Below, in pieces: positions 17,192-47,822 of a stretch of 55,414 nt of DNA. The DNA lies in contig WHTI01000005.1 in assembly GCA_009377815.1 (NCBI GenBank), positions 1 through 55,414 of the forward strand, given 5' to 3'. This DNA is from Actinomycetota bacterium. Lineage in GTDB: Bacteria > Actinomycetota > CADDZG01 > WHSQ01. A program made the position numbers and the translations under genes. Under the pieces are notes generated by a model. That model was not told the DNA's origin. It saw only the letters and a program-made list of their open reading frames with translations, and made no database searches. Position 1 is the first letter of the stretch; every line of letters starts with the position of its first letter.

Positions 17192-17200
17192 AAGAGCGCG

Positions 17201-29560: not shown

Positions 29561-30354
29561 GCCAGCCCCAACACCTTCCGTACCTCCTGGACCTTCTCTA
29601 TGAGTTCCGGAGAGGTGAACATGGACGACTCCCGTGGCCTCGGAAGATCGATGTCGATGACATCGAGAACGCGACCCGGCTCGGTTCCCATGGCAACCAC
29701 TCTGTCGGCCAGGAAAATGGCCTCGGTGATGTTATGTGTAACGAAAACCGTGGTCTTGCCTTCGAGCTCCGCGATGCGCGCCAACTCGATGTTTAGACGC
29801 TCTCGCGTGAACTCGTCGAGTGCACCAAAAGGCTCGTCCATCAACATCAGGTCGGGATCGGACACCAGAAGACGACAGAGCGCGACGCGCTGTTGCATCC
29901 CGCCAGAGAGCTGCCGCGGATAACGGTCCTGTAAGCCGGAAAGGCCGACGAGTTCGAGAACCTCCTCGACCTTGGCCGTCACGTCCACGGACTTGTCACG
30001 ATGTACCTGAAAGGGCAGCCTGATGTTGTCGAAGACCGTTCTCCAGGGGAACAGGGTCGCCGTCTGAAACATCAGGCCGATGTCCGCGCGGGTACCCTCC
30101 AGCTTCTCCCCCCCGATGGTGATGGTGCCCTCCGAACAACCGAGCAGCCCTGCGATCATCTTGAGGAGGGTCGACTTGCCGCACCCCGACGGGCCGACCA
30201 CGCTGATGAACTCCCCGGGTTCGATGTCAAGATCGACGTTCTCGAGGGCAACGTTGGTGTCTCTGCCCTTCCCGAACACCCGGCTGACACCCGCCATCCG
30301 GACACTCAACTCGCTCCCATGGATATGAGGGGTCGCTGCTTCTGCTCTTTGCAT
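29557..30354 (-). CDS. SsuB/TauB-like ABC ATPase
   Basis: Cytoplasmic ATPase of the NMT1-type importer, 265 aa. Walker A GPSGCGKSTLLKMIAGLLG, Q-loop GLMFQTATLFPWRTVFDNI, signature LSGGMQQRVALCRLL, Walker B LMLMDEPFGALDEFTRE and switch FVTHNITEAIFLADRV are all intact. The ATG at 30354 has GGGAGAG directly upstream. It is the first gene of the 30354-20823 run and is preceded by an inverted repeat at 30400-30421. Confidence 0.9.
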   Translation of the reverse strand: MQRAEAATPHIHGSELSVRMAGVSRVFGKGRDTNVALENVDLDIEPGEFISVVGPSGCGKSTLLKMIAGLLGCSEGTITIGGEKLEGTRADIGLMFQTATLFPWRTVFDNIRLPFQVHRDKSVDVTAKVEEVLELVGLSGLQDRYPRQLSGGMQQRVALCRLLVSDPDLMLMDEPFGALDEFTRERLNIELARIAELEGKTTVFVTHNITEAIFLADRVVAMGTEPGRVLDVIDIDLPRPRESSMFTSPELIEKVQEVRKVLGLA

Positions 30355-30500: not shown

Positions 30501-31685
30501 TCATCCCCCGATCGCTTCAAGAGCAGCCGCGTAACCGCGCTCGTCGGACATGATCGTTTCGGAGCAGCCGGCGGACTTGGCCGACGCGAGCGACCGAACC
30601 ATCCAGTCACCGAACAGGGGCGACACCAGGTGATCCCGGTTGGTGCACGTATGCCAGCCGTCCTCGACGACCACCAACGCGCCATTCATCGTCCGGGCCG
30701 CACGCCGCGCTTCCTCGATATCCGACAGATCCTCACGGCCACCGTGAACCACCAGCGCAGACGGCTGATTGGAGGTCGGGACCTCGGTGAGATCGAGATG
30801 CTCGCGAACGTGTGCCAGCACGTCGGTGGTCTCGAGTCCGAGGCAGGAGGAGAAAGCGTGCACAACACCTTCGGGCCACGCATCGATCGAGGCCGCGTCA
30901 CAGAAGCCACCATTGCAGATCACGCCTCGGATCCGAGGGTCGCGGAGTGCAGCGTCGAGCGCCAGATAGCCGCCGAGGCTGTTCCCGAATACGCCGATCC
31001 CCCCGAGGTCGAGATCTCGATCCCCCGCTTCGAGCCAGTCGATAACCGCAGACACAGAACGGTGGAACGAGCCGAAGCGCATCGTGAGGCGTCCGTAGCG
31101 GGCCGCCAGCTCGCCCTGGCCCGGGCCATCGAACGGCACGACCGCGAGACCTCGTCTCGTGAACTGAGTGCCCCAGTGATGGAGCTCCTCCTTATTGGTG
31201 TCCGCTCCTCCGATCATCAGCACGACTTTGGGGCGCTCAACATTCCGGGGGAGCCGCAGGTAACCGGGGATCACATCACCGTCGAAGTCGATCTCGATGC
31301 GCTCGGATGGAGGCTCGAAGTAAGGCGCCCCGGCCGCGTAAAGCTCCAGGGAGGACCGGTGAGCGGTCGATCTGTCGATCCCCACCGCATAGAGCGACGC
31401 CCAGTGCGCGCACAGGGCGGAGCGCAGATACCCGTCTCCGGCGGAGGCATATCCTCCCCCGGCAAGAGCCGCGTGGGCCAGGCTGCGATGCCGTTCACTC
31501 GCTGCCATCCACATGGAGAACCATTCCGTTCTTCGAGTGATGGTATCCAGAACGCGAGAGATCTCCGAGTAATCGAGGTGTCCGGCGATCTGCATCCGGG
31601 CCAGCCGGACGAATTGGTAATTGCGCCCCAGATGCTCAGCCCCGTGCAGCCTCAGCATGACGTCGAACAGATCGGGTCCCTTCAA
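30501..31685 (-). CDS. Alpha/beta hydrolase related to 2,6-dihydroxypseudooxynicotine hydrolase / FrsA family
   Basis: Serine-type alpha/beta hydrolase of 394 aa with a helical N-terminal domain (about residues 1-130) and a core domain. The nucleophile elbow is GVFGNSLGGYLAL (Ser near 236), a candidate acid lies in GGREDLSDIEE near 316-320, and the His lies in EDGWHTCTN near 345. SLELYAAGAPYFEPPSERI and PFDGPGQGE fit the DHPON hydrolase/acetylxylan-like group that cleaves C-C or C-N bonds. The TTG at 31685 overlaps the coxE stop (TTGA). It closes the Mo-hydroxylase operon and could act after ring hydroxylation. Confidence 0.8.
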   Translation of the reverse strand: MKGPDLFDVMLRLHGAEHLGRNYQFVRLARMQIAGHLDYSEISRVLDTITRRTEWFSMWMAASERHRSLAHAALAGGGYASAGDGYLRSALCAHWASLYAVGIDRSTAHRSSLELYAAGAPYFEPPSERIEIDFDGDVIPGYLRLPRNVERPKVVLMIGGADTNKEELHHWGTQFTRRGLAVVPFDGPGQGELAARYGRLTMRFGSFHRSVSAVIDWLEAGDRDLDLGGIGVFGNSLGGYLALDAALRDPRIRGVICNGGFCDAASIDAWPEGVVHAFSSCLGLETTDVLAHVREHLDLTEVPTSNQPSALVVHGGREDLSDIEEARRAARTMNGALVVVEDGWHTCTNRDHLVSPLFGDWMVRSLASAKSAGCSETIMSDERGYAAALEAIGG

Positions 31686-32839
31686 CCGGCTCTCCTCACG
31701 CGAAGGTCCCCCAGTGCCCCTGCAAGTTCCTCCAGACTGTTCAGATCATGACCGGACATGAATCTATCGATGTAAGGAAGCGCAGCCGCCATCCCGCGCG
31801 CGAGTGGTTCGTACCCCGGCGATCCCTTGAGTGGATTCACCCAGACGATGGCGTGGGCAAGGCCCCGGAGCCTCCGCATCTGCAACGCCAGCATCTCGGG
31901 GTCACCTCGCTCCAGTCCGTCCGAGCAGATGATGACCACGGCTCCCCGGGCGACGCCGCGCCGGCCCCATCCACTGATGAAACTCGCGATGGCATCGCCG
32001 AGCCGGGTGCCTCCTTCCCAGTCGGGAACCCGCTCTCCGAATCCAGCGAGGGCAACGTCGACCGACGGAGCCCGCAGCAAGTCGGTGACTCGTGAGAGCG
32101 AGGTTCCGAAACAGAAGACCTCGGTACGGGGTTGCCGCCTACGCACGGCGTAAGCGAACTGCAGCAGCGTTCTCGAGTACCCCTTCATGGAACCGGAAAC
32201 GTCGAAGAGGAAGACCATCCTTCTCGGCTTTGGCTGTTGCTTCTGCCAGTAGCGAACCGCCGGCTCGCCTCCGAGCTTCATGGAAGCTCCCAGCATCTTG
32301 CGAAGATCCAGAGACGAACCTCTTGATGCCGCGCTCATCCGGCGAGACAATCGCACAGGCGGTTCCAGGGCAACCGATGCGATCAGACGCTTGAGCCTCT
32401 CATACTCGTCGGCAGTAAGCCGATCGAAGTTCTTGGAGCGCAGCAACTCGATCGAGCTTGCGAGCGTCACCTCAGCCGTCTCCTCCTCGGAATCCGACTG
32501 AGGCTCATCCCGGATCTCCTCGGGAGAGCCGGTCGACTCCGCGACGAGATCTCGGGGGGGATCCAGGGCATCTTCGGCCTGGGGAAGCGACTCCTCCGGC
32601 TCGCCACGGGCGAACAAGAAGAACTCCCGTTCGTAGATCTCGATCTCCTCCGGGTTGCGAACGAACGACAACCGGCCGGCCCAGTAGATGTCCTTGATGG
32701 ATAGCGCGTCGAGTTCGGCAATGGCCCTTACGAACAGCATCGTGGCGTGTGCGTCGGCGCTGAGTCCGGCCCCTCTCAGGCGGCCGGAGAAATCCGCAAC
32801 GCGGCGGCTGAGCACCCCACCGAGCTCATCCATCGGCAC
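31682..32839 (-). CDS. coxE: CoxE-like VWA-domain maturation protein
   Basis: Protein of 385 aa with a C-terminal von Willebrand A domain whose MIDAS motif is FLFDVSGSMKGYS near residue 212. YWAGRLSFVRNPEEIEIYE in the N-terminal part and an acidic central stretch are typical of CoxE. With CoxD it is required in CO-oxidisers for post-translational assembly of the Mo active site. Start is GTG 32839 or ATG 32833; both overlap the coxD end. It is placed directly after coxD, as in known cox clusters. Confidence 0.87.
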   Translation of the reverse strand: MPMDELGGVLSRRVADFSGRLRGAGLSADAHATMLFVRAIAELDALSIKDIYWAGRLSFVRNPEEIEIYEREFFLFARGEPEESLPQAEDALDPPRDLVAESTGSPEEIRDEPQSDSEEETAEVTLASSIELLRSKNFDRLTADEYERLKRLIASVALEPPVRLSRRMSAASRGSSLDLRKMLGASMKLGGEPAVRYWQKQQPKPRRMVFLFDVSGSMKGYSRTLLQFAYAVRRRQPRTEVFCFGTSLSRVTDLLRAPSVDVALAGFGERVPDWEGGTRLGDAIASFISGWGRRGVARGAVVIICSDGLERGDPEMLALQMRRLRGLAHAIVWVNPLKGSPGYEPLARGMAAALPYIDRFMSGHDLNSLEELAGALGDLRVRRAG

Positions 32840-33716
32840 CGATGATTCGAGGTAGGGCCTCGAGAGCGACGCCCAGATCCTCCTCCTGCTTGATCGCAGC
32901 TCCGATCGTGTCGCGTGCCGTTTCCGTCCGGAGATCGGTGACCCCGAGGAATGAGAGCGCCCGGGTCCAATCGATCGTCTCGGCCACGCCGGGGGACTTC
33001 GTCAAAGGAAGTTTTCGCAGCCCCGCGACCGCGCGCGCTACATCGTGAGCGAGAGATGCGGTCGCTTCTGGGACGCGCAACCGGATTATCTGCGACTCCA
33101 TCTCGAGATCCGGATGAGGGATCACGTGATAGAAGCAACGTCGCTTGAGGGCATCGTGAACCTCGCGCGTTCGGTTCGAAGTGAGGATCACCACCGGTGG
33201 AACCTGGGCCGTGATGGTTCCTACCTCGGGGATCGTGATCGAGAAGTCCGACAGGACCTCGAGGAGGAACGCCTCGAACTCATCATCGGCTCGATCCACC
33301 TCGTCGATCAGGAGCACGGAGCGCGACTCCGTCCTGATAGCGCGTAGCAACGGTCGCTCAACCAGGAACTCCCACGAGAAGAGGTCGTCCACGGAGACGT
33401 GGTGCTCCGTGCCTTCCGACGCTCTGACCGCGAGAAACTGACGGGGGTAGTTCCAGTCATAGATCGCTTGGGCGACCCCGATCCCCTCGTAGCATTGAAG
33501 CCTGATCAATTCGCTACCCAGGATGGAAGCCAGGACGTTGGCGGTCTCGGTCTTGCCCACCCCGGCTTCACCCTCAAGGAACAATGGCCGCTCCAACGAC
33601 ACGGCGAGATGGAGTGCGGTTGCCAGACCCCTATCCGCCAGATACCGGTGATCACGCAGGGAGCGCTGCAGGTCATCCACCGATGACCACGCCGCGCTCC
33701 CACGTCTCTTCGTCAT
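32826..33716 (-). CDS. coxD: CoxD-like MoxR-type AAA+ ATPase
   Basis: AAA+ chaperone ATPase of 296 aa. Walker A GEAGVGKT is at residues 49-56, Walker B VLLIDEVDRAD near 136, and sensor-1 VVILTSNRTREVHDALKRR follows. The stretch GIGVAQAIYDWNYPRQ is characteristic of CoxD-type MoxR proteins, which work with CoxE in maturation of Mo-hydroxylases. The ATG starts immediately after the cyclase stop codon, and coxE overlaps its 3' end by 14 bp. Confidence 0.9.
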   Translation of the reverse strand: MTKRRGSAAWSSVDDLQRSLRDHRYLADRGLATALHLAVSLERPLFLEGEAGVGKTETANVLASILGSELIRLQCYEGIGVAQAIYDWNYPRQFLAVRASEGTEHHVSVDDLFSWEFLVERPLLRAIRTESRSVLLIDEVDRADDEFEAFLLEVLSDFSITIPEVGTITAQVPPVVILTSNRTREVHDALKRRCFYHVIPHPDLEMESQIIRLRVPEATASLAHDVARAVAGLRKLPLTKSPGVAETIDWTRALSFLGVTDLRTETARDTIGAAIKQEEDLGVALEALPRIIGADG

Positions 33717-34526
33717 CTAAGCCAGCTCCACCTTGAGGTCGGCATCCTGGAAAGCCAGTATGCGGCAGATCGACGCTTCGCCGCCTACCAGCTTCCACGG
33801 GAAGGCACCGATCAAGCAACGCTCGTTGGCTACCTTCTCGAGATCGCCGCCGACGTTCTCGGCGTGGATGATGCCTTTGGGAAACAATCTGTAGTGGGCC
33901 GGCCAATAGGTTTCTTCCACCACGCGGCCGCTCGCGTGCGTGTATGTGAACGGCGGGAAGAACTCCTCGCAGGTCTTACCGATGCTCTTCTCGAACTGAG
34001 CTCTTAGGTCGGGGCGCATCGCCCGGATAGACGTCCACATCGGGTGATCGCCGGAGCCGCAATCCACCCCCCACCAGGACAGCTCCATGTCCATCATCCA
34101 TTCCAGAAGCTCCATGCCCGGACCGGGATGCATGTTCATGTAACGGTTGATGTCCTGCTTGGGGCCGCCCTGGTAGTAATCCTTGTAGCCGGTGAACAGG
34201 ATCAGCACGTCGTGCTTCTTCACCTCGACCTTGGAGGTGATCATCTCCGTGGTGATCACCGTCCAGTCCTCCACGTCCGCGCGCAAGTCAACGACGACGC
34301 CCTCGTGGATCAACTTATCGAGGGGTTCGGAGGCGATGTCCTTGCCGCCATCGAACCCGTGCATCTCCGCGTCGATATGCGTCCCCACGTGAAGCGCGGT
34401 CTCGATCGCCTGCGACACGATCCGCTGCGTGTGGAAGTTCTGTGTGTAGTAGAGCTTGGGTCCCGGATACCCCGTCCATCCTGGGGTGTGGATACTCCAT
34501 GGATGCGTTAGATCGACAACCTTCAT
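33717..34526 (-). CDS. Cyclase/kynurenine-formamidase-family hydrolase
   Basis: Metal-dependent hydrolase of 269 aa in the KynB/cyclase family. The signature HVGTHIDAEMH (residues 46-56) carries the metal ligands, and VDLTHPWSIHTPGWTGYPG is the usual N-terminal strand. Members hydrolyse N-formyl amides, isatin or other cyclic or linear amides. It starts by ATGA overlap with the upstream coxL gene and is followed without a gap by coxD, so it is an integral member of the Mo-hydroxylase operon and plausibly hydrolyses the oxidised product. Confidence 0.85.
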   Translation of the reverse strand: MKVVDLTHPWSIHTPGWTGYPGPKLYYTQNFHTQRIVSQAIETALHVGTHIDAEMHGFDGGKDIASEPLDKLIHEGVVVDLRADVEDWTVITTEMITSKVEVKKHDVLILFTGYKDYYQGGPKQDINRYMNMHPGPGMELLEWMMDMELSWWGVDCGSGDHPMWTSIRAMRPDLRAQFEKSIGKTCEEFFPPFTYTHASGRVVEETYWPAHYRLFPKGIIHAENVGGDLEKVANERCLIGAFPWKLVGGEASICRILAFQDADLKVELA

Positions 34527-36838
34527 CGCTCACCTTTCTCTCTAGGACTTCGTTGGATGTTGCAGATCACTTTTCGCAGACGCTCCGGTGACACGGGGAG
34601 ACGGGTAACCGCCCCGGGCGCGTCCAGGGCATCGTCGATCGCAGCCGCCACGGCCGCACCGAACGCGGTGGTACCCCCCTCCCCCGCTCCCTTGACGCCC
34701 ATGGGATTAAGCGGGGTGGGCGCATCTTCGAGCAGAAGCACATCGACCGGCGGCATCTCGGTCACGGTGGGCAGCAAGTAGTCCATGAAACTCGTCGCGA
34801 GCGGCTGCCCGTCGTCCGAGTACACGAACTCCTCGAGCAGGGCGCCACCCAACCCTTGGGCGGCTCCCCCCACGATCTGGCCCCGGACCAGCATCGGGTT
34901 CACGGCCTTCCCGATGTCGTAGGCGACTACGTATCTGAGGATCTCAACCCCGCCTGTCCACTCGTCAACCCTCACTAGAGCCGCATGCACCCCGTAGGGA
35001 TAGGTCATGTGTTCGGTGGTGAACCAGGCCTCCGCCGAAAGCGTCGGAACCATTCCGGTTCGCTTGGCTCCTGAAGGATCGAGTGAACGCGCGACCTCGG
35101 CCAACGACACCCGGCGTTCTGGAGCTCCAACCACTTCGAGGTTGCCTGCAACCATCCCGATGTCGGCCGGATCGGCTTCGAGTAGATGGGCAGCCGCTTC
35201 CCGGGCCTTGACCAGAAGCGCCCGAGCAGCCATCTGGGTTGCGGTCCCCGTCATGACCGTGACCCGGCTGGCGAAGGCGCCGAGACCGTAGTCGATCTCG
35301 TCGGTCTGTCCATGAACGACCCTGATCCCATCCACCGACACGTCGAGAACGTCTCCGCAGACCTGCGCGATCGCAGTTTCAACACCCTGCCCCATAGAGG
35401 CCGCTCCGGTTACGACCCGGATCCCACCATCGTCGTCAACGTCGATCCGAGCGCCTTCGTAGGGGCCGAGGCCGCTCTTCTCGACGAAGAACGCGAATCC
35501 CAGTCCGACCCACTCTTCGGAGGCGCGACGTTCGTCGAGTTCCGCGCACAGGCCTTTGTCATCCACGTACGCCAAGGTCTTTTCGAGGATCGACGGATAG
35601 TCGCCCGAGTCGTACTCCATCTCGGTCCCGAGGGCGCGGATCGGCCGCGCGAAGGGCATGTCCTCGTGAGCGATAAGGTTCCGTCGTCTGGTCACGATTG
35701 GGTCCTCGCCGAGTTCTGCGGCGACAGCGTCCAGCAGCCTCTCGCGCGCGAACGTGCCCTCGTAGCGACCAGGCGCTCGATAGGTTCCGGCCGGGGTCTT
35801 GTTGGTCAGCCTGATATGACCGCGGCATTCGTATGCTGGGATCACGTAAGGCCCGGGAAGCATCGCGGCCGTCAGGTTCGGTACGGTCGCGGCATGGCTT
35901 CTGACGTAGGCCCCTTGATCGAGCCAGAACTCATCCCGAACGGCGGTGATGAACCCATCTGCATCGACGGCTGCCTCGATGACATGAACCTGGTCGCGGG
36001 AGTGGTTGGTTGCCACGAGATGCTCCTTGCGATCCTCGATCCACTTGACGGGTGCGTTCAAACGGAGAGCGGCAAGGCATACGAGCACGTCTTCCGGGTA
36101 TAGCTCGCCTCGCACGCCAAAGCCACCCCCAACGTGCCCCTCGCGCAGGACCACGTCGTCGATGCCAAGTCCCAGCATCAACGCGATAGCTTGTCGATTG
36201 TAGTGAGGCACCTTGGCGGCGCCGTACATGACGATGCGGCCATGATGCTCGCGCACCGCCAGCGCTCCCCTCGTCTCCATCGGAACACCGGTGTGACGAC
36301 CGACAGACACCTCGACCGTGACCCGCCGGTGCGCAGCCGCAAAGGCTGCCTCAACATCTCCGTACGAGACGTTGACGAGCGCCGCCTCCGTGTCGCTGTC
36401 TTCGTCGAAGGGAGCAGGGTCGGCCCTGGGGTCCACCACGACATCGAGCTCGTCGAAGTCCACGAAGACGAGGTCGGCTGCATCCTCTGCCGCGTAGGGA
36501 TCGCGCGCGAAGACCGCAGCAAGCGGCTCGCCGACGTAGCGCACCTCACGCTCCGCAAGGATCGGCTGCCGGTAGGGATAGAGATCGGTGAGCCCCTCCT
36601 GCCGAAAGTCGATCGGGGGTATCTCAGCCGTGTCTCTCCCCGTCCAGATCGCGACGACGCCGGGAAGCTCAAGGGCGGCTTCCACATCGATGTGGGTTAT
36701 CCGTGCGTGCGCGACCGGGGACCGAACGATCCGCATGTGCAGCTCACCCGCCATCGTGATATCTGCCACGAAACGACCCCTTCCGGTGATGAGAGGCGGA
36801 TCCTCAACCCGAGGGATCGATCGCCCTAGCAACCTCAC
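34523..36838 (-). CDS. coxL: CoxL-like molybdenum hydroxylase large subunit
   Basis: Mo-cofactor subunit of the xanthine-dehydrogenase/CoxL superfamily, about 771 aa. The start domain has IPRVEDPPLITGRGRFVADI, then GHVGGGFGVRG, the active-site loop NKTPAGTYRAPGRYEGTF, GAASMGQGVETAIAQV and the catalytic Glu in GVKGAGEGGTTAFGAA. The loop TYRAPGR is neither AYxCSFR (form I CO dehydrogenase) nor AYRGAGR, so CO is unlikely to be the substrate. The GTG at 36838 overlaps the coxS stop (GTGA); the frame open to 36898 is shadow. It is paralogous to the gene at 40693. Confidence 0.89.
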   Translation of the reverse strand: MRLLGRSIPRVEDPPLITGRGRFVADITMAGELHMRIVRSPVAHARITHIDVEAALELPGVVAIWTGRDTAEIPPIDFRQEGLTDLYPYRQPILAEREVRYVGEPLAAVFARDPYAAEDAADLVFVDFDELDVVVDPRADPAPFDEDSDTEAALVNVSYGDVEAAFAAAHRRVTVEVSVGRHTGVPMETRGALAVREHHGRIVMYGAAKVPHYNRQAIALMLGLGIDDVVLREGHVGGGFGVRGELYPEDVLVCLAALRLNAPVKWIEDRKEHLVATNHSRDQVHVIEAAVDADGFITAVRDEFWLDQGAYVRSHAATVPNLTAAMLPGPYVIPAYECRGHIRLTNKTPAGTYRAPGRYEGTFARERLLDAVAAELGEDPIVTRRRNLIAHEDMPFARPIRALGTEMEYDSGDYPSILEKTLAYVDDKGLCAELDERRASEEWVGLGFAFFVEKSGLGPYEGARIDVDDDGGIRVVTGAASMGQGVETAIAQVCGDVLDVSVDGIRVVHGQTDEIDYGLGAFASRVTVMTGTATQMAARALLVKAREAAAHLLEADPADIGMVAGNLEVVGAPERRVSLAEVARSLDPSGAKRTGMVPTLSAEAWFTTEHMTYPYGVHAALVRVDEWTGGVEILRYVVAYDIGKAVNPMLVRGQIVGGAAQGLGGALLEEFVYSDDGQPLATSFMDYLLPTVTEMPPVDVLLLEDAPTPLNPMGVKGAGEGGTTAFGAAVAAAIDDALDAPGAVTRLPVSPERLRKVICNIQRSPREKGER

Positions 36839-37308
36839 CCCCGCATCTCCTCCGCCGCCGCCTTCACCGCGATAAGGATGTTCTGGTAACCCGTGCACCT
36901 GCAGAGATTGGAGGAAAGGACTTCGCGCAGGGCCTCGTCATCGATGTCGGGCTCCTGCTCGAGCACGCTCGTGGCCAGCATCAGGAAACCTGGAGTGCAG
37001 AAACCGCACTGTAGGCCGTGGTGCTCCCAGAATGCCTTCTGCACAGGATGGAGGTCATCGCCGTCCGCCAACCCCTCAACCGTGCGGAGCGGAACGCCGT
37101 TGCACTGAACCGCGAACATCAAACAGGACCTGACCGGCTGCCCGTCCATCAACACCGTGCACGCGCCGCACACCCCATGCTCACATCCGAGATGCGTCCC
37201 GGTTAGACCGCATTCCTCGCGGATCGCGTCTGCCAGCGTCTTCCGTGCCTCGACGAAGATCTCGTGCTCACTGCCGTTGATGTTGAGTGTCACCTGATGC
37301 TTCATCAT
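36835..37308 (-). CDS. coxS: CoxS-like [2Fe-2S] subunit
   Basis: Electron-transfer subunit of the Mo-hydroxylase, 157 aa. The plant-type [2Fe-2S] ligands are Cys42, Cys47, Cys50 and Cys62 (GCEHGVCGAC...SC), and the proximal cluster uses Cys101, Cys104, Cys136 and Cys138 (QCGFC...CRC). It is the only small subunit of this operon and is flanked by two large-subunit genes with 4-bp overlaps on each side (GTGA and ATGA), so it may be shared by both. A second, separate coxS is at 47989. Confidence 0.93.
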   Translation of the reverse strand: MMKHQVTLNINGSEHEIFVEARKTLADAIREECGLTGTHLGCEHGVCGACTVLMDGQPVRSCLMFAVQCNGVPLRTVEGLADGDDLHPVQKAFWEHHGLQCGFCTPGFLMLATSVLEQEPDIDDEALREVLSSNLCRCTGYQNILIAVKAAAEEMRG

Positions 37309-39611: not shown

Positions 39612-39617
39612 GTTTGT

Positions 39618-40475
39618 TTAGTGCTCCGTCGAAGCTTGGAGCGACCGACGCGTTAGAACCCGGACTAGATCACGTCGGTATTCGGGGGAGCCGTGGATGT
39701 CGCCCATCGGCTCGACATCGCCGGCGGCGGCCTCGCCGGCTTCGGCGAAGAGTTCGCCACTCGGAACGTTCCCCTGCAGCACTGCCTCTGCCGCCGGAGA
39801 CCGTAACGGGGTCCCACCGACACTCCCAAGGGCGATCCTTGCCGTCGAGATGCGTCCCCCTTCGACGTCCAACACGGAGGAGGCAGCCACGATGGCGAAG
39901 TCCCCGGCGCGCCGGCTGAACTCGACGAAACCGATCTTTGCCGCCGGGTTAAGTAACGGCAGTCTTGCTTCGGTAAGCAACTCGTCCGGTTCCAGAGCGG
40001 TGGAGAACACGGTCTTGAAGAAGTTGGATGCCGTGATCTCGCGTTGTCCCCTCACGCTCGATGCCACCATCGTGGCGTCGAGAAGGGTAGCGATCATGCA
40101 CCACTCTGCCGCAGGGTCCGCGTGGGCGAGGCTCCCGCCGAAGGTGCCGCGTATCCTGATCGGGCGATGTCCGACTTTGCGAGCCGCAAGAGCGAGAAGG
40201 TGTCCGAGGGGGCCGTCGGTCACCGGCCGCTCGAACCGTACGTGCCGGGCCAGCGTGCCGATCACGAGATGATCGCTCGAACTGGTTACAGAGTCGATGC
40301 CCCCGATCCCGTTGATGTCTACCAACACGGCGGGCCGGGCGAGGCGGAAGTTCATGCTGGGCACAAGGCTCTGCCCGCCCGCGAGAACCTTTCCCTCGTC
40401 TCCAACCTCGGCCAGGATGCTCAGGGCTTCCTCGAGTTCTCGAGGTGCTCGGTATTCGAATTTCGCCGGCTTCAT
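39618..40475 (-). CDS. coxM: CoxM-like FAD-binding subunit
   Basis: FAD subunit of the Mo-hydroxylase, 285 aa, normal length. Both FAD motifs are visible: LAGGQSLVPSMNFRLARP near residues 31-48 and GTFGGSLAHADPAAEW near 111-126. The C-terminal CO_deh_flav_C domain follows (FVEFSRRAGDFAIVAAS). It is the first gene of the minus-strand operon and the only CoxM in the window, so both large subunits here, and perhaps the divergent one at 40693, must use it. Confidence 0.93.
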   Translation of the reverse strand: MKPAKFEYRAPRELEEALSILAEVGDEGKVLAGGQSLVPSMNFRLARPAVLVDINGIGGIDSVTSSSDHLVIGTLARHVRFERPVTDGPLGHLLALAARKVGHRPIRIRGTFGGSLAHADPAAEWCMIATLLDATMVASSVRGQREITASNFFKTVFSTALEPDELLTEARLPLLNPAAKIGFVEFSRRAGDFAIVAASSVLDVEGGRISTARIALGSVGGTPLRSPAAEAVLQGNVPSGELFAEAGEAAAGDVEPMGDIHGSPEYRRDLVRVLTRRSLQASTEH

Positions 40476-40692
40476 CTGGTCGCCATCCTATCTGCGGGGA
40501 CTTCAAATATAGTCAAGTTCATCGAACAAGGGTGAAATCGCGGGACCCACGCAGTCGAGGAGGAAGAGTGCCACCCATGGAAACGAACCTTGCGGGCGGT
40601 GGCGTTGCTTACCCCGATGGCATCACGTGTCGTTCCGACGCCATGGATGGGGCCGGTCCCGGAAGCACGGCCTCCCATCGCGGAGGCGCACA
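40476..40692. promoter_or_regulatory. Divergent promoter region between coxM and the third coxL
   Basis: This 217-bp region is shared by the minus-strand cox operon and the plus-strand operon. AT-rich caaatatagtcaagttc (40504-40520) is the best promoter or operator candidate; its TATAGTC matches the first 7 bases of the element at 9665. On the minus strand it reads as TTGACT followed by ATATTT. No gene was recognised here. Confidence 0.35.
40682..40686 (+). promoter_or_regulatory. Ribosome site deciding a CTG start
   Basis: GGAGG lies exactly 6 nt before CTG at 40693, in the frame of the downstream coxL-like gene. The only canonical in-frame start, GTG at 40627, has no ribosome site and would add 22 basic, non-homologous residues. 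Confidence 0.5.
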
Positions 40693-42990
40693 CTGAGCAC
40701 TCCGAGGACGCGGGTCCGAATCGGCGACTCGCCGAAGAGGGTCGAAGATACACCCCTCATAACGGGCCGCGGGAGCTTCGTCGGAGACCTCCGTCTGGGG
40801 GGGCAACTGAGCGCGATGATCGTGCGTTCCCCGGTCGCCCACGGCACGATACGAAGCATAGAAACATCTGAGGCGCTCGCCCTGCCCGGAGTGGTCGGGA
40901 TCTGGACGGCCGCGGACATCATTTCCGAATTCGGCTCGGTGCCCCTGATCCAACCCCGCGTGTCCTTCGATAAGGCAGTCGTCCCCTACCTGCAGCCGGT
41001 CCTGGCGGTTGACAAGGTGAGATACGTCGGTGAACCGGTTGCACTCATCATCGCAACCGACCGCTACACCGCCGAGGATGCCGACGACCTTGTGTTCGTG
41101 GACATAGATCCGATCGATGCCTGCATCGACACTTCCACAGCGTCTCAGGGAGAGCCCCTATTCCCCGAAGGCAACGAGATCACCGTGCTGACCGGAGGAT
41201 TCGGGGACCTCGCGGTCTTCACGGAATCCCCCGTGATCATCGAAGCCGAGCTAAAGATCGGCCGGCATAGCGGCGTGCCCATGGAAACCCGGGGACTCGT
41301 CGTTCAGCACGACGCGGACTCCCTGATCGTCCACGGTTCGACCAAGGTCCCGCATGCGAACCGAGACCAGCTCGCGAAACACCTCGGGATCAGCCCCAAC
41401 AGGATCCGGATGAAGGAGACGTCGGTCGGTGGTGGCTTCGGTGTGCGGGGCGAGTTCTATCCGGAGGACTTCCTGATCCCCTGGGCCGCGCTGAAGCTCA
41501 AAGGCACGATCTCGTGGATCGAGGATCGCCGCGAGCACTTCCTCGCTGCCAATCAGGCCCGCGAACAAACACATCAGGCCACAATCGCAGGGGACTTGGA
41601 GGGCCGGATCCTCGGGCTACGCTCCGAATTCTTCAACGACATGGGCGCGTACGTGCGGACACACGGCATCCGGATCCCGGACCTGACCCTCTCGATGCTT
41701 CCCGGTCCCTATGACATCGGAGCATACGAAGGCATCGCCCACTGCGTACTAACCAACAAGACGCCGACCGCTACGTATCGAGCTCCGGGTCGCTTCGAAT
41801 CCTGTTTCGTAAGAGAACGCCTGATCGATATGTACGCGGCGAACGTCGGCATCGATCCCATCGAGGTTCGCAGGAAGAACCTGATCCGTCCCGATCAGAT
41901 GCCCTACCGACGGGCCCTGCAATCCACCGGAGAACTCGTGATCTTCAACGAGGGCAACTACGCCAAGCTCCTCGGGGACGTGAAAGCCAAGATCGATATC
42001 CCCGGGATCGTCGCTCGACGTGGGGCGGGAGAGTGGGTCGGCGTCGGCATCGCCATGTTCCTCGAGAAATCGGGTCTGGGACCTTGGGAATCGGGTTCGG
42101 TCGTTGTTTCCAACGACGGCACCATCCTGGTACGAACCGGCTGCAGTTCGGTTGGACAGGGCCTGCGCACGGTCCTCGGGCAGATTGCCGCCGAGACCTT
42201 CGACGTCGATCTCGAGAGGGTTCGTGTAGAGCTCCTCGACACCGAGCACAGCAGCTATGGAACGGGGAGCTACGCGAGCCGTTCCACAGCAACGGGTGGG
42301 AGTGCCGTGCTGCTGGCGGCGCGGCACGTGATCGATACGGCTCGTTCCTTCGCGGCTCCACATCTCGAGGTCGATCGGGACGACCTCGTCGTTCGCGATG
42401 GCGGCCTGGAGGTGGCCGGCGCTCCAGACCTCCGCTTGGGATTCGGAGAGATCGCGAGGATGCTGGGACCAACCTCCAGCCACAGGGGTACGGCCCCCCC
42501 GGGCCTGCGAGCGGAAGAGTTCTTCCACGTCAAGAAACTGACCTATCCCTATGGGTGCCATGCCGCAGTGGTGTCGGTGGACCCCGAGACGGGGCTCCCA
42601 ACGGTCGAACGACTCATACTCGGCTACGACATCGGAAGAGCGATCAACCCGAAACTCGTCGAGGGTCAACTTCACGGAGGGGCCCTGCAGGGCCTCGCCG
42701 GAGCGATCCTCGAACGTTTTTCCTACGACGAGGAGGGAAACCCCTTAGTGACTTCGTTCATGGATTATCTGATGCCAACCATAGCGGAGGCCCCCCAGAT
42801 GACGACGCTCATCACGGAGGACGCCCCGACCGAAACCAATCCCCTAGGCGTCAAGGGCACTGGTGAAGGCGGACTCACCGGCGTTGCCGCCGCGATCGCA
42901 ACTGCGATCGACGACGCTCTGCAAACCTCCGGGCTCGTCACCGAGGTGCCCGTCGACCTTCTAACCCTTACCAAGGCGGTGCGATCGTGA
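40693..42990 (+). CDS. coxL: CoxL-like molybdenum hydroxylase large subunit, probable CTG start
   Basis: Mo subunit of about 765 aa, paralogous to the product of 34523 throughout: SPKRVEDTPLITGRGSFVGD, SVGGGFGVRGEFYPEDF, active-site loop NKTPTATYRAPGRFESCF, CSSVGQGLRTVLGQIA and catalytic Glu in GVKGTGEGGLTGVAAA. A consensus GGAGG sits 6 nt before CTG 40693, whereas GTG at 40627 has no ribosome site. No coxM or coxS gene accompanies it, so it presumably borrows those of the divergent operon. It overlaps the next amidohydrolase gene by 4 bp (GTGA). Confidence 0.85.
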   Translation: MSTPRTRVRIGDSPKRVEDTPLITGRGSFVGDLRLGGQLSAMIVRSPVAHGTIRSIETSEALALPGVVGIWTAADIISEFGSVPLIQPRVSFDKAVVPYLQPVLAVDKVRYVGEPVALIIATDRYTAEDADDLVFVDIDPIDACIDTSTASQGEPLFPEGNEITVLTGGFGDLAVFTESPVIIEAELKIGRHSGVPMETRGLVVQHDADSLIVHGSTKVPHANRDQLAKHLGISPNRIRMKETSVGGGFGVRGEFYPEDFLIPWAALKLKGTISWIEDRREHFLAANQAREQTHQATIAGDLEGRILGLRSEFFNDMGAYVRTHGIRIPDLTLSMLPGPYDIGAYEGIAHCVLTNKTPTATYRAPGRFESCFVRERLIDMYAANVGIDPIEVRRKNLIRPDQMPYRRALQSTGELVIFNEGNYAKLLGDVKAKIDIPGIVARRGAGEWVGVGIAMFLEKSGLGPWESGSVVVSNDGTILVRTGCSSVGQGLRTVLGQIAAETFDVDLERVRVELLDTEHSSYGTGSYASRSTATGGSAVLLAARHVIDTARSFAAPHLEVDRDDLVVRDGGLEVAGAPDLRLGFGEIARMLGPTSSHRGTAPPGLRAEEFFHVKKLTYPYGCHAAVVSVDPETGLPTVERLILGYDIGRAINPKLVEGQLHGGALQGLAGAILERFSYDEEGNPLVTSFMDYLMPTIAEAPQMTTLITEDAPTETNPLGVKGTGEGGLTGVAAAIATAIDDALQTSGLVTEVPVDLLTLTKAVRS

Positions 42991-43982
42991 TCGATGTCCA
43001 TTCCCACTACTTCCCCTCCTCCATGCTCAAGGAGATCGCCGGACATGAATCCGGTTTAGGGGTGAGCTACACGCCGGATGAGGGGATTCTGACGTTCCCC
43101 GGGGGGCCGAGGAGACCGATCCCCGCGTCGTTGACCGACCTCGCCGGTCGCCGGGAGCTCAATCGAAGCCTCGGCATATCGCGGCAGGTTCTGTCGCCGT
43201 GGCTCGATGTCGCCGGAGACGACCTCAAGGGTTCGCAGGCGATCGCGTGGGCACGCCTCTACAACGACAGCCTGGCCCAAGAGGTCGACGGTGATCCGAA
43301 CTTCCCGCTCTTTGCCACCATCCCGGTTGGGCACAGCAACGGTAGCGCAGAGGAGCTCCGACGAGCGGTAGCGGACCTGGGTTTCGCGGGCGGTACGTTG
43401 CCGACGCACGTCACCGGCACCAACCTCGACGAAGCGGGCCTCGACCCGCTGTTCGAGGCCGCCCAAGACCTGGGCGTGCCGTTGTTCCTGCACCCCTACA
43501 GGGTCATGGCCGAGGACCGCATGAGCAAAGATTTCCTAACCAACATCTGCGGCAACCCGTTCGAGGTGACGCTCGCCGCGGTCACGCTCTTCTTCGCCGG
43601 CGTGCCTGAGCGCTACCCGCGACTGGATATCCTCCTCGCTCATTGTGGGGGGACATTGCCCCTCATCGCGGGCCGGGTGGCGCGCGGTTCCCAGAAGGCG
43701 TCCGGAGTGCGCAAGAAGCTCGAAGCCCCCGACGACATCCTCGGCTGTTACTACTACGACACCCTCATGCATGATCCCGATGCCCTGGCGTTCTCGATCC
43801 GGCGCATAGGAGCTGACAGATGCGCGGCCGGAAGCGACATCCCCTTCCCGATGTCGGTCGATGATCCGGCGGCACATATCCGGGAAGCCCTGGAGACGGC
43901 AGGGCTCTCGGAGAGCTTCGAAAGGGTCACACGGGGAACCGCTACGGAGATTCTCAAACTTGGACCTAGCCTCGAACAGTGA
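42987..43982 (+). CDS. Amidohydrolase-2 family metal-dependent hydrolase/decarboxylase
   Basis: ACMSD/amidohydrolase-2-type TIM-barrel enzyme of 331 aa. Metal ligands are seen in IDVHSHYFPSSM at the N-terminus, LFLHPYRVMAED near residue 170, LLAHCGGTLPLIAGR near 218 and AAGSDIPFPMSVDDP near 288. It is related to the product of 11029, sharing VHxHxFPSSM and GRV/GRL after the third ligand. The GTG start overlaps the coxL stop, so it is translationally coupled to the Mo-hydroxylase and plausibly acts on its product. Confidence 0.87.
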   Translation: MIDVHSHYFPSSMLKEIAGHESGLGVSYTPDEGILTFPGGPRRPIPASLTDLAGRRELNRSLGISRQVLSPWLDVAGDDLKGSQAIAWARLYNDSLAQEVDGDPNFPLFATIPVGHSNGSAEELRRAVADLGFAGGTLPTHVTGTNLDEAGLDPLFEAAQDLGVPLFLHPYRVMAEDRMSKDFLTNICGNPFEVTLAAVTLFFAGVPERYPRLDILLAHCGGTLPLIAGRVARGSQKASGVRKKLEAPDDILGCYYYDTLMHDPDALAFSIRRIGADRCAAGSDIPFPMSVDDPAAHIREALETAGLSESFERVTRGTATEILKLGPSLEQ

Positions 43983-44028
43983 ACTACATTAAAATCCTCT
44001 TGAGTTTCACATAAACCGCTAGTGAGGG

Positions 44029-44412
44029 GTGCCCGTGGAAGTGAAGGTTCAGATCGTCGATACCGATGAAAGTTGCCCCTCCCTGCCACTGGTTGATGGG
44101 GATGGCTACGCACGCGCTGTGATCTGGCCGGGGATCGGAGCCCATTTGCGATCCATGCACCTGATCCATCTGAACTCCGGGGCCCAGACCAAGGAGCAAC
44201 GCCACCCCATGGAGGCCGTGTACTACGTGATAGAGGGCGATGCGATCGCGATCGACCCCTCCAACGGATCCAGTCAGGTTGCGACTCAGGGATCCATGAT
44301 CTTCGTGGAGCCCGACACCTCCTACGAGATCCACGCTACCAGCATGACGGCCAAGATCGTGGGGGGGCCCTGCCCTCCCGATCCCCATCTCTACGAGCAT
44401 CTGAAGAGTTGA
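44029..44412 (+). CDS. Single-domain cupin protein (VGGPxPAD subfamily)
   Basis: Small cupin of 127 aa. Motif 1 is KEQRHPMEAVYYVIEGDA, with fewer His than usual, and motif 2 is SMIFVEPDTSYEIHAT. The tail VGGPCPPDPHLYEHL places it with the cupins at 18744 and 44769. The reduced His set suggests weaker or no metal binding. First of three consecutive cupin genes; it starts with GTG 46 bp after the amidohydrolase. Function unknown. Confidence 0.78.
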   Translation: MPVEVKVQIVDTDESCPSLPLVDGDGYARAVIWPGIGAHLRSMHLIHLNSGAQTKEQRHPMEAVYYVIEGDAIAIDPSNGSSQVATQGSMIFVEPDTSYEIHATSMTAKIVGGPCPPDPHLYEHLKS

Positions 44413-44765
44413 GCACCGCAGTCTCCGTTGCGCTCGACTCCCTGGAATGGGAAACAGTAGACGCGCTCGTGCAGAAGAAAGTCGTCGACGGCGCCTCCAT
44501 GACGATGACGCGCTATAGCTTCAAGCCGGGTGGGCGCTTTCCACACCACGTCCACGAACAAGAGCAGATGACGATGGTAGTCGCCGGACGCCTGACCTTC
44601 TTAGTAGATGGTGTCGACCATGTGCTCGAAGTAGGTTCCCTAGTCGTGATCCCATCCGGCGTGCCACACAGCGCGGAGGCAGGGCCGGAGGGAGCTGAAG
44701 TTGTCAGCTTCGTCTCGCCGGCTCGGACTGAAGGCCGCGGGATCTCAATGCTCGAGGAGGAGTGA
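44409..44765 (+). CDS. Single-domain cupin protein, separate subtype
   Basis: Small cupin of 118 aa. Motif 1 reads GGRFPHHVHEQEQMTMVVAG with the classic His-x-His and acidic/amide residues for a metal site, and motif 2 is GSLVVIPSGVPHSAEAG. It lacks the VGGPxPAD tail of its neighbours and is closer to general cupin_2 proteins. The TTG start overlaps the previous stop (TTGA). It is followed 3 bp later by the third cupin. It may be an isomerase or ring-cleavage-type metalloprotein; no function is assigned. Confidence 0.78.
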   Translation: MSTAVSVALDSLEWETVDALVQKKVVDGASMTMTRYSFKPGGRFPHHVHEQEQMTMVVAGRLTFLVDGVDHVLEVGSLVVIPSGVPHSAEAGPEGAEVVSFVSPARTEGRGISMLEEE

Positions 44766-44768
44766 AAT

Positions 44769-45152
44769 TTGGCCATTCGAATTTTCCACAAGGACCTACC
44801 GGACGTGAAGATACCAATGATCGCCCAGGACGCCCGCCTTGTCGTGTGGCTCGGAGCCGGCTCGCACACCGCAAACATGAACTACGTAGACATGCAGCCC
44901 GGCGAACGAAACGTCCCTCACGCCCACAATGGATCGGAAGACACCATCTTCATCCTCGACGGTTCGGGCACGGTCGAAGATCTGACCAACGATCTCACGT
45001 ATGAGGTGCGAGCCGGCCAGGTGGTTCACGTCCCGGAAGGGATCGTCCACGCCGTCCGTGCCGATAAAGGCACCCGGTTAGAGAGCGTCGGTGGGCCCGC
45101 CCCCGCGGACGAAGAGATGCTCAAGAAGATGGGGATCGAGATCAGGCGATGA
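44769..45152 (+). CDS. Single-domain cupin protein (VGGPxPAD subfamily)
   Basis: Small cupin of 127 aa. Motif 1 is NVPHAHNGSEDTIFILDGSG and motif 2 is GQVVHVPEGIVHAVRADKG. The tail VGGPAPADEEMLKKMGIEI matches the cupin at 18744, including residue spacing and total length. The TTG start has GGAGGAG 9-10 nt upstream. It overlaps the nitrilase gene by 4 bp (ATGA), so the three cupins and the amidase are probably co-translated. Confidence 0.8.
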   Translation: MAIRIFHKDLPDVKIPMIAQDARLVVWLGAGSHTANMNYVDMQPGERNVPHAHNGSEDTIFILDGSGTVEDLTNDLTYEVRAGQVVHVPEGIVHAVRADKGTRLESVGGPAPADEEMLKKMGIEIRR

Positions 45153-46003
45153 CCCACCCCCTTTCTCTCGCCCTGGCGCAGTTGTGCGCGGAGCCATATG
45201 AGGCCGCCAAGAACAGAAGCCTGACCCTGGAAGCTTCGGCGCGTGCCTTCGAGATGGGCGCGGACATCGTCGTACTCCCGGAAATGATCCTTCAGGGATA
45301 CGTGGCCGATAAGTCGCGGCTCGCTCCTCTTGCCGAGACAGTCCCGGGTCCAACGACGAAGGCCTGGCAACAACTAGCGGCCGACCACGGGAAGTACATC
45401 TGCGGCGGTCTCTGCGAAAGGGACGGCAATGACCTCTACAACACCGCCGTGCTCGTGGGTCCTTCCGGCGTCGCTCTTCACTACCGCAAGCTTCACCTCT
45501 TCGGAGACGAAAAAGTGACCTTCCGACAGGGTGACCGTGGCCTGCCGGTCGTTCATACTTCTTTCGGCACCGTCGGGATCTGCGTCTGCTACGACCTTCG
45601 CTTCGTGGAAGTAGTACGCGCTCTGACACTGAAAGGCGCCGATCTGATCCTCGTACCCACAGCGTGGCTGCCAGGCTTCGACCAGCAGCGATGGGATGCG
45701 GACGGGATGTGCCCTCAGGCATACGGCGCCTTGTTCCAATCCAATCTCTCGCAATGCTTCATCGCTTGCGCATCCCAGGTCGGAAGGCACGGCGGATCGG
45801 AATTCCTCGGCTCGAGCATCGTCGCCGACCCTTACGGCAAGCGAGCGCTCGGACCGCTGCCCATGGATGCAGAAGACATCACCGTCGTCGAACTCGACAT
45901 GGCCCAGGCCAAACTCGCTCAGGTTCGTTCCACTCTCATCGCACCTCGCGCCGATCGTCGCAGAGACGTCTACGGGATCGCTATCGACGGAGACATCCTC
46001 TAG
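45149..46003 (+). CDS. Nitrilase-superfamily carbon-nitrogen hydrolase (amidase)
   Basis: C-N hydrolase of 284 aa. The catalytic triad is Glu45 (VVLPEMILQG), Lys114 (HYRKLHLFGDEK) and Cys147 (GICVCYDLRFVE), in the usual order and spacing. It hydrolyses an amide, carbamoyl group or nitrile; the YRKLHLFGDE context resembles omega-amidase and carbamoylase branches more than true nitrilases. It is the last gene of the tightly packed run starting at 40693 and may release ammonia from a ring-opened intermediate. Confidence 0.87.
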   Translation: MTHPLSLALAQLCAEPYEAAKNRSLTLEASARAFEMGADIVVLPEMILQGYVADKSRLAPLAETVPGPTTKAWQQLAADHGKYICGGLCERDGNDLYNTAVLVGPSGVALHYRKLHLFGDEKVTFRQGDRGLPVVHTSFGTVGICVCYDLRFVEVVRALTLKGADLILVPTAWLPGFDQQRWDADGMCPQAYGALFQSNLSQCFIACASQVGRHGGSEFLGSSIVADPYGKRALGPLPMDAEDITVVELDMAQAKLAQVRSTLIAPRADRRRDVYGIAIDGDIL

Positions 46004-46450
46004 CGTCCCGGTTCAAGATGTTCCTGGGTCGCACCGAAGCGAACACCGGGCCTCCAGATTGCCCCTTGAATCATAGTGAAATTCGTTAGATGCTAGTGGA
46101 TGTTAGGCCGCCGAAGCGGCTTGCGGGAGGGAGACTTCGCCTGATGGACTGTCATCCATTTATCGTCTCACCATGCCGAGTAGACGCGCCGGCGAACATT
46201 CCCCCTTCCCTCCCAGAGCTTGCCGCTCGGCGGTCGCCCTCATGGGGGTGCAAACGGCGCCAATAGGAAGAGTGCATCCAGCCTCCACACACGAGGCCCT
46301 GATCACTCCCGTCAGGCATGCTCTCGGCCACCCCCACTCTCGGCCACCCCTTGATTGGTTCGTCGCCGCCACGCCCGACAACTTCCAGAACCATCGCATA
46401 GGGAGATAGCAAGGGCCGATGAAGGACGATCGAAAAGGAGCTGGGGAGCG
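46004..46450. other. 447-bp intergenic region
   Basis: No credible gene was found; the open frames here have no recognisable domain. It probably contains the promoter for the isochorismatase-TauE pair, with AT-rich ttgaatcatagtgaaattcg near 46066-46086. It also contains a 14-bp direct repeat at 46321-46350. Confidence 0.4.
46321..46350. repeat. 14-bp tandem direct repeat
   Basis: CTCTCGGCCACCCC occurs at 46321-46334 and again at 46337-46350, separated by 2 bp. It lies about 100 bp upstream of the isochorismatase-family start and may be a regulator site or a short slippage duplication. Confidence 0.4.
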
Positions 46451-47050
46451 ATGTCCGAGCCTTGGGACCCACGGCACTCTGCGTTGGTGATCGTGGACTA
46501 TCAGAATGATTTCTGCCACGAGGACGGGGCAGTGGCGCGGATGGGCCATGCGAGCGAGCCGTCAGCTGCAATCCAACCGCGGATCGCCGACGTGCTCGAG
46601 TCTGCTCGGGCCAGCGGTATGCCACGCATCTTCGTGAGGGTCGTGCACTCCGAATGGACCGATACCCCCGCGTGGACCGATCGCGGATCGGAAAGCTTCC
46701 ATGTGCCAGTCGTCCGGGAGGGAACCTGGGGAGCGGAGTTCTACAAGATCTCCCCGCGGCCGGACGAACTCATCATCACCAAGCATCGGTATTCCGCGTT
46801 CCTTTTCACTCCCCTGAAACTGGCGCTCGAGGCCAAGGGGGCGTCCTCGATCGTGATCGTCGGAGTTCAGACAGATGTCTGCGTCCACGCGACAGCGCGT
46901 GACGCGATGCAGGAAGGGTTTGTTCCAATCGTGGTCGAGGATTGCGTCGCCACGCGCGATCAAGAGGCTCACGACACGGCCCTCCAGGACATCAGGGTCA
47001 GGGTGGGGTTGGTCGTCAACTCGAGCGATATCCACTCCGCCTGGTCGTAG
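46451..47050 (+). CDS. Isochorismatase-family cysteine hydrolase (amidase)
   Basis: Cysteine hydrolase of 199 aa. The triad is Asp16 (LVIVDYQNDFC), Lys111 (IITKHRYSAF) and Cys144 (GVQTDVCVHATARDA), with the usual cis-peptide region before the Cys. Such enzymes hydrolyse small amides and ureides (nicotinamide, maleamate, N-carbamoylsarcosine, biuret). The ATG at 46451 follows GGGGAGCG. It is followed by a TauE permease gene. Together with the nitrilase gene it gives the locus two independent amidases. Confidence 0.86.
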   Translation: MSEPWDPRHSALVIVDYQNDFCHEDGAVARMGHASEPSAAIQPRIADVLESARASGMPRIFVRVVHSEWTDTPAWTDRGSESFHVPVVREGTWGAEFYKISPRPDELIITKHRYSAFLFTPLKLALEAKGASSIVIVGVQTDVCVHATARDAMQEGFVPIVVEDCVATRDQEAHDTALQDIRVRVGLVVNSSDIHSAWS

Positions 47051-47084
47051 ACGACGTTATCGGAAACCAGGAGCCGAGAACCGA

Positions 47085-47822
47085 TTGGACCTGAGCCTTC
47101 TAGACCTTGCCGGTGGAGCGGGAATCCTTCTAGGCGCGCTAGCAAGTGGGGTGGTGGGACTCGGCTTTCCGATCGTTGCAGTCCCGCTGATGACTCTGGC
47201 CTACGGTCTCGAGACCGCAGTGGTCGTTATGACCCTACCGACCCTGGCCATCGATTTCGTGAACCTGTGCAGCAACCGAAAGCACAGAGAGGGCACCGCC
47301 GCCACGACCTTCACTCTGTGGGCAATCGTCGGAGCGGCGGCGGGCGTACTGATCCGGAGCCATCTGGACGAAAAGATCCTCACGATCCTCCTTGGCATCG
47401 TCATCGCGCTGTACCTCGCAACCCAGACCTTCCTGACGATCGATCTGAAGCGTGCGGCGTACCATCCGGTGACACAAGTATCGGCGGGGGGGTTGGCCGG
47501 GTTGCTACAGTCCGCGATCGGGGTCTCCGGGCCCGTGGTAGCGATCTTCTTCATCAATCGCGCGGTGTCCCGAGAAGCCTTCATCTTCTCCGCGGCCGTG
47601 GTGTTCACGGTCAGTGGTTCGGTGAGGGCGACGGGCCTGGCTCTAACCGGAGACTTCACATCACAGCGCTTGGTAGCGGGCGTGCTGATCGCCGTGGTCG
47701 CACTTGCCGTCCGTACGTTCGGAGCCTTCCTGGGAGCCAGGATGGAGCCTCAAGGATTCCGGCGAGCGTTCATCGGAGTCCTTGCAATCTCCCTGTTCTT
47801 TCTCTTCCTGAAGGTCCTCTAG
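47085..47822 (+). CDS. TauE/SafE-family membrane permease, paralog of 19403
   Basis: Predicted anion permease/exporter of 245 aa, the same length as the protein at 19403. The repeats are ASGVVGLGFPIVAVPLM near residue 20 and GGLAGLLQSAIGVSGPVVAIFF near 143, with ETAVVVMTLPTLAIDFVNL after the first. The TTG at 47085 is chosen because the homologous N-terminus starts there and AGGAG lies about 11 nt upstream; the upstream frame shadows the isochorismatase gene. It is convergent with coxS at 47989. Confidence 0.82.
   Translation: MDLSLLDLAGGAGILLGALASGVVGLGFPIVAVPLMTLAYGLETAVVVMTLPTLAIDFVNLCSNRKHREGTAATTFTLWAIVGAAAGVLIRSHLDEKILTILLGIVIALYLATQTFLTIDLKRAAYHPVTQVSAGGLAGLLQSAIGVSGPVVAIFFINRAVSREAFIFSAAVVFTVSGSVRATGLALTGDFTSQRLVAGVLIAVVALAVRTFGAFLGARMEPQGFRRAFIGVLAISLFFLFLKVL

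Follow-up and report, generated by a model that had tools for sequence, protein, structure and literature searches.

Can several catalytic subunits of a molybdenum (Mo) hydroxylase work on one and the same pair of electron-transfer subunits? This question is raised by a gene island (30501-47822) on a 55,414-nt contig of an uncultured Actinomycetota bacterium (WHTI01000005.1, assembly GCA_009377815.1), which is referred to in full length as the window. Mo hydroxylases are usually described as enzymes with one large (L), one medium (M) and one small (S) subunit each, and in this LMS family L carries the Mo site, while M and S pass electrons on. In the island, three intact large subunit genes (L1, L2 and L3) are accompanied by one M gene, one S gene and a set of hydrolases. 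The island probably encodes the catabolism of an N-heteroaromatic compound, most likely of the pyridine type, on a single M-S module that serves L1, L2 and, in this lineage, also L3.

Organization of the Mo hydroxylase genes

The minus strand carries the genes in the order M-L1-S-L2-cyclase-coxD-coxE-alpha/beta hydrolase. The sole M of the island is a coxM-like flavin adenine dinucleotide (FAD) subunit (39618..40475) with the Pfam domains FAD_binding_5 and CO_deh_flav_C, and it is followed by L1 (37305..39611), the coxS-like 2x[2Fe-2S] subunit S (36835..37308; Fer2 and Fer2_2) and L2 (34523..36898). L3 (40627..42990), which lacks an own M or S, opens the divergent plus-strand arm L3-amidohydrolase-three cupins-nitrilase-isochorismatase. 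All five subunits score well above the Pfam cut-offs and together represent the domain set of the LMS-type xanthine oxidase family. Each gene named in the first inspection of this DNA, which used its letters alone and is termed the sequence-only reading, proved to be an open frame with the expected Pfam domains, including TauE (~47121-47822, plus strand), and the description of three intact CoxL proteins was confirmed, as L1, L2 and L3 each contain three large-subunit domains and the catalytic Glu of the Mo site within the motif KGxGEGG. The genes were said to be linked mostly by 4-bp overlaps, and exactly this overlap is present at six junctions (L1/S, L2/cyclase, coxE/hydrolase, L3/amidohydrolase, cup1/cup2 and cup3/nitrilase); S/L2 becomes the seventh if L2 uses an internal GTG at 36838, its likely start. 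The remaining junctions measure +6, 0, -14, +46 and +3 bp, and 429 bp precede the isochorismatase domain.

Inventory of M and S genes

To which extent subunits are shared can be approached by counting L, M and S genes in entire genomes, which was done one family at a time for the source assembly (G000; 3.6 Mb in 485 contigs, 96.6% complete, 2.57% contaminated, with the window as contig C207) and for other genomes (labelled G004, G397, G061 and so forth). The source genome contains 14 full L, 8 M and 10 full S genes and therefore cannot settle the issue alone. The G004 assembly (six contigs, 95% complete) holds 4 L, 2 M and 2 S genes. Here, one self-contained L/M/S set is located on C4, so that the three L genes of the island on C2 are left with one M and one S. 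G397 contains 4 L, 3 M and 3 S genes, which are accounted for by one M-L1-S-L2 operon and two self-contained sets. In G061, a complete genome in one contig, both S genes outside the operon (of three in total) are part of complete L/M/S sets, and the remaining full S genes of G414, G470 and G630 all adjoin an L sequence. Across these six genomes, no orphan S that could serve L2 was found. The proposal of the sequence-only reading that several L proteins depend on one M and one S is thus borne out by the M and S counts in G004, G397 and G061, none of which has separate M/S partners elsewhere. The inventory supports the presence of extra L genes without separate M or S genes, and we infer that the subunits are shared at the protein level: with a single M/S pair at hand, both L1 and L2 would be expected to use it, whether by swapping places on it or within one mixed complex. 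A literature search, which covered few subscription journals, returned no precedent for a Mo hydroxylase with two L proteins on one M/S pair.

Conservation across two phyla

Of 14 neighbourhoods with an L1 gene, drawn from Actinomycetota and alphaproteobacteria, 12 retain M-L1-S-L2, with M undetected in one (G181). Among 396 sampled Actinomycetota genomes, a close cyclase is present in the source genome and G004 only. G004 holds the whole island with both divergent arms in matching order, with identities of 53-88% within the island itself (88% for the cyclase, compared to 48% for the binding protein of the importer described below), and it also includes the importer, the regulator and CoxG, while its isochorismatase gene is inverted. 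Within 397 genomes of the Bradyrhizobium order, a close L1 was detected in six; all six show M-L1-S-L2, accompanied in the same stretch by a cyclase (54-57%), and most of these clusters also contain cup1, cup3, nitrilase, CoxG and regulator. G061, G014 and G181, the last of which has a short contig, bear the two-L operon in a different setting. The four genes M, L1, S and L2 show correlated pairwise distances (r 0.64-0.89), and the trees of M and L1 are near-identical in topology, as expected for genes that would move together. A conserved co-occurrence of all three L genes with the cupins and the cyclase, which had been suggested as a check, applies to G004; in the alphaproteobacteria M-L1-S-L2 is kept, in most of the clusters with cup1 and cup3, and L3 and cupin 2 were not found beside it.

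The co-inheritance of L1 and L2 in one operon with a single M and a single S across phyla would also agree with a mixed heterodimer, in which L1-M-S and L2-M-S perform two successive hydroxylations instead of competing for free M-S. Mo hydroxylases of the LMS type are dimers of LMS units, and M-L1-S-L2 could accordingly form one complex that passes the ring from the first to the second alpha-hydroxylation, with L3 as a further exchangeable head. This arrangement appears rather doubtful, since M-L1-S occurs without L2 nearby in Embleya and G229, and L2 occurs without L1 in the stretches read for L051 and Neorhizobium, so that neither protein needs the other everywhere.

The patchier distribution of the plus arm leads to another alternative, namely a chance neighbourhood of several small pathways, in which L1, L2 and L3 have separate roles and the compound attacked by the Mo operon differs from that of the amidohydrolase-cupin arm. 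It would be compatible with a window rich in other catabolic genes, with 14 L genes in the genome, with L3, the amidohydrolase, cupin 2 and the isochorismatase not being found beside the alphaproteobacterial operons, and with a Rhodococcus ruber cupin-nitrilase-cyclase cluster whose surroundings, as far as read (31 kb), lack a Mo hydroxylase. However, G004 retains the two divergent arms together, and cup1-cup3-nitrilase of the plus arm accompany the minus operon in alphaproteobacteria, which makes a chance neighbourhood quite improbable. For the preferred reading as a single pathway, the common travel of cup1-cup3-nitrilase-CoxG-cyclase with the Mo operon is a supporting argument.

Large subunit clades and active sites

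A maximum-likelihood tree of 31 L sequences was used to classify the catalytic subunits. L1 clusters with QorL of quinoline 2-oxidoreductase and NdhL, the nicotine dehydrogenase (NDH) subunit encoded on plasmid pAO1 (98/99), while L2 and L3 cluster with KdhL of the pAO1 6-hydroxypseudooxynicotine dehydrogenase (KDH; 99/97), whose structure (PDB 7dqx) is the closest match of L2 (622 bits). L3 also groups with two L sequences from another island of the source genome. This second island, on contig C52 (L061:2297-19482, and L062), combines four L genes with one M and one S and additionally contains an isochorismatase, an amidohydrolase_2 and an NMT1-type importer.

The active-site loop reads PYRGVSR in L1 and TYRAPGR in L2 and L3, and AYACSFR is found in CoxL (PDB 8uem) only. 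In relatives, an equatorial Gln touches the Mo oxo group; L1 has Gln at this Mo-contact position and L2 and L3 have Lys, while KdhL presents another residue. Two assignments were rejected. Form I carbon monoxide (CO) dehydrogenase is ruled out because the AYXCSFR loop is missing from L1, L2 and L3, and xanthine dehydrogenase (XDH) is ruled out by scores of 322-363 bits, compared to an XdhA cut-off of 780, which are below all XDH/PucD equivalog cut-offs, as well as by clade. None of the catalytic proteins of the island reached an NCBIfam equivalog cut-off, and no substrate is assigned thereby.

Hydrolases of the island and proposed pathway

Downstream of L2, the 'cyclase' (33717..34526, minus strand) is a PF04199 protein and a putative ring-opening metal-dependent hydrolase, in which H46, H50, D52 and H56 of the HxGTHxDxxxH motif are invariant among six relatives. 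It is followed by a coxD-like AAA ATPase (32826..33716; AAA_5, 51% identity to the pAO1 MoxR ATPase) with a putative role in Mo-site maturation, a coxE-like VWA protein (31682..32839; VWA_CoxE, 36% to the pAO1 VWA protein) and an alpha/beta hydrolase (30501..31685) related to 2,6-dihydroxypseudooxynicotine (DHPON) hydrolase, with PDB 2jbw as best match (134 bits) and the nucleophile Ser and the His retained in the alignment. On the plus strand, L3 is followed by an amidohydrolase_2 (42987..43982; PF04909) that resembles ACMSD and related decarboxylases (PDB ACMSD, 124 bits). Next are cupin 1 with a degenerate metal motif (44029..44412), cupin 2 (44409..44765), which is present in G004 and was not found in the alphaproteobacterial clusters, and cupin 3 with a full HxH...H metal motif (44769..45152). 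A nitrilase-superfamily amidase (45149..46003; CN_hydrolase) retains the Glu-Lys-Cys triad, as E45, K114 and C147 align with pAO1 NIT, and the arm ends with an isochorismatase-fold cysteine hydrolase (46451..47050, start approximate), for which biuret hydrolase is the best PDB match. AlphaFold models of the cyclase and cupin 3 had mean predicted local distance difference test (pLDDT) values of 42 and 58, too low for fold searches, and were left unused.

Several of these features can be arranged into a pathway. An NMT1-type ATP-binding cassette (ABC) importer, encoded beside the island (27496..30354, minus strand), would bring in the substrate. Mo active site and substrate pocket would come with each L. 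The two carbons adjoining the ring nitrogen may be hydroxylated in turn, one by L1-M-S and the second by L2-M-S, in analogy to NDH and KDH in the nicotine pathway, with CoxD and CoxE as putative maturation factors of the Mo sites. Two alpha-hydroxylations of a pyridine-type ring would yield 2,6-dihydroxypyridine. Chemical reasoning suggests that its cyclic-imide tautomer is a fair substrate for a metal-dependent PF04199 hydrolase, which would cut the ring C-N bond before the Nit-type amidase liberates the nitrogen as ammonia. Side chains or further positions might be the task of three more proteins, namely L3, the DHPON-hydrolase-like enzyme, which is a C-C hydrolase relative, and the ACMSD-like protein. 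Among the clusters seen, only those of the source genome and G004 contain all three, which suggests a side-chain-bearing substrate there. The order of these steps is a proposal, and of the ring-hydroxylation and amide-cleavage pathway for an N-containing compound put forward by the sequence-only reading, the N-heterocycle part is rendered plausible by the clades of L1, L2 and L3, whereas we still infer the substrate and the amide-cleavage step. In isonicotinate/citrazinate degradation, two alpha-hydroxylations are followed by hydrolytic ring opening and an amidase, which provides an unconfirmed lead; a literature search on the corresponding genes found nothing relevant.

Several observations weigh against this interpretation. 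The cyclase of the window is not an orthologue of PKC, its pAO1 counterpart (24% over 137 aa, E 4e-4), and no equivalent of 2,6-dihydroxypyridine hydroxylase (DHPH) or 6-hydroxynicotine oxidase was seen among the annotated open reading frames of the window. The L clades do not fix substrates, with identities to NdhL and KdhL of 37-41%, and generally no substrate is readable from identities of ~25-50%. In the source genome, a further 7 M genes and, not counting S2 (see below), 8 further S genes could serve L3. Finally, the haloarchaeal setting of a distant cyclase relative hints at a nucleobase-like substrate in these archaea: on a Halostagnicola larsenii plasmid (L039), a protein with 41% identity is encoded among Mo hydroxylase L/S/M, SRPBCC, XdhC and cytosine deaminase genes and nucleobase transporters.

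This last observation, together with the resemblance of the isochorismatase to biuret and ureidoacrylate hydrolases and the weak resemblance of the cupins to ureidoglycine aminohydrolase, leads to the possibility that a purine- or pyrimidine-like nucleobase is oxidized by the Mo enzymes, followed by opening of a ureide-type ring by cyclase and amidase. The placement of all L proteins in the QorL/NdhL and KdhL clades, far under the xanthine dehydrogenase cut-offs, argues against such a substrate, as does the lack of any recognized allantoin, uricase or barbiturase gene in the region, and we regard a nucleobase as unlikely, though worth keeping in mind.

If the pyridine-type interpretation holds, the island adds a candidate ring-breakdown route in uncultured Actinomycetota and alphaproteobacteria, with the PF04199 protein as a candidate ring-opening hydrolase that is distinct from the one of the nicotine pathway. 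The conservation of a two-L operon with one M and one S over two phyla, with no spare partners where they can be counted, suggests an exchangeable catalytic head on a constant electron-transfer base. Shared M and S subunits may also help to explain genomes with more L than M or S genes, such as the source genome.

Flanking genes

Although all genes it named were recovered, the sequence-only reading did not list four flanking elements whose homologues lie in or adjoin the same cluster in other genomes. First, the ABC importer consists of the NMT1-type binding protein (27496-28617), a permease (28670-29560) and an ATPase (29557-30354), identified by Pfam and NCBIfam, and the G004 island carries the same three genes (48-64% identity). 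Second, a CoxG/SRPBCC protein (20241..20807, plus strand; Pfam COXG) has a homologue (64%) directly between L3 and M in G004. Third, an OYE-family flavin oxidoreductase (50178..51380, minus strand; Pfam) has 45% identity to one beside the G414 cyclase. Fourth, orthologues (46-67%) of a PuuR-like cupin-HTH regulator (51459..52109, minus strand) adjoin the cluster in G004 and in alphaproteobacteria. The end of the island had been placed at 47822, but 167 bp farther on lies a second coxS, S2 (47989..48462, minus strand; Pfam), next to a broken fourth coxL, L4 (48459 to ~50089, minus strand), the probable partner of S2, which has lost its 5' part and contains one in-frame TAG and one frame change. 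As this pair was not found in G004, it may reflect lineage decay or an assembly fault.

The window contains two TauE/SafE permease genes (19403-20140 and ~47121-47822), and such a gene is likewise located close to the island of G004. Further catabolic genes at 10164-18703 encode a second ACMSD-like amidohydrolase, TrzA-like and CodA-like amidohydrolases, another amidohydrolase and FMN-dependent and D-2-hydroxyacid dehydrogenases. The region 21846-30354, with a zinc-type oxidoreductase, an enoyl-CoA hydratase, an acetate-CoA-ligase-like protein and the ABC importer, resembles in similar order a plasmid block of Variovorax sp. SRS16 beside a KdhL-clade Mo hydroxylase (hydratase 58%, ligase 44%). 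A SelB-type elongation factor with SelB winged helix (52880-54727) hints at the use of selenocysteine in this genome.

Comparison with known systems

The statement that no described pathway has this gene set was half right. The nicotine plasmid pAO1 of Paenarthrobacter nicotinovorans, which encodes the pyridine pathway, provides a similar toolbox, with KdhL, DHPON hydrolase, CoxD, CoxE, CoxG, a PF04199 hydrolase, a cupin and a Nit-type amidase in one cluster. KdhL, DHPON hydrolase, CoxD, CoxE and CoxG clearly match the window (31-51% identity) and the amidase does so weakly (27%), whereas the pAO1 cyclase and cupin have no orthology-level match. In pAO1, the PF04199 protein was proposed as ring opener and NIT was reported as an amidase (PMC6214936). 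The combination of KdhL- and NdhL-clade L proteins with a DHPON-type hydrolase is common to both systems, but pAO1 NDH and KDH each have their own M and S, the island has one M/S pair, and no equivalent of nicotine blue reductase was seen in the window; most shared parts are 27-51% identical. L3, the ACMSD-like protein and the three cupins are extras of the island. A direct assignment of the island to the nicotine pathway was rejected, as the cyclase is non-orthologous and neither DHPH nor 6-hydroxynicotine oxidase was seen in the window.

Among individual enzymes, QorLMS and nicotine dehydrogenase resemble L1 in clade and in the GGGFGQK and PYRGV/AYRGV loops, but they are single LMS enzymes, while in the island one M-S pair would serve both L1 and L2. 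KDH resembles L2 and L3 in clade and as best PDB match, at ~40% identity and with the difference that Lys replaces the equatorial Gln in L2 and L3 and another residue does so in KdhL. The uncharacterised cluster on the R. ruber plasmid pmega_2 (Rieske, reductase, bicupin, nitrilase, cyclase, CMD) shares the cyclase (63%) and nitrilase (43%), with cup1-cup3 fused as one bicupin beside Rieske oxygenases. A related Rieske oxygenase gene is found in four alphaproteobacterial clusters (G414, G470, G630 and G757). The Rieske and Mo settings suggest that cupin-nitrilase-cyclase is a lower module that can be supplied by more than one type of hydroxylating system. Judged from gene content, the conserved Mo hydroxylase with two or three L proteins on one M/S pair would be the new element, surrounded by a known, nicotine-pathway-like toolbox for N-heterocycles.

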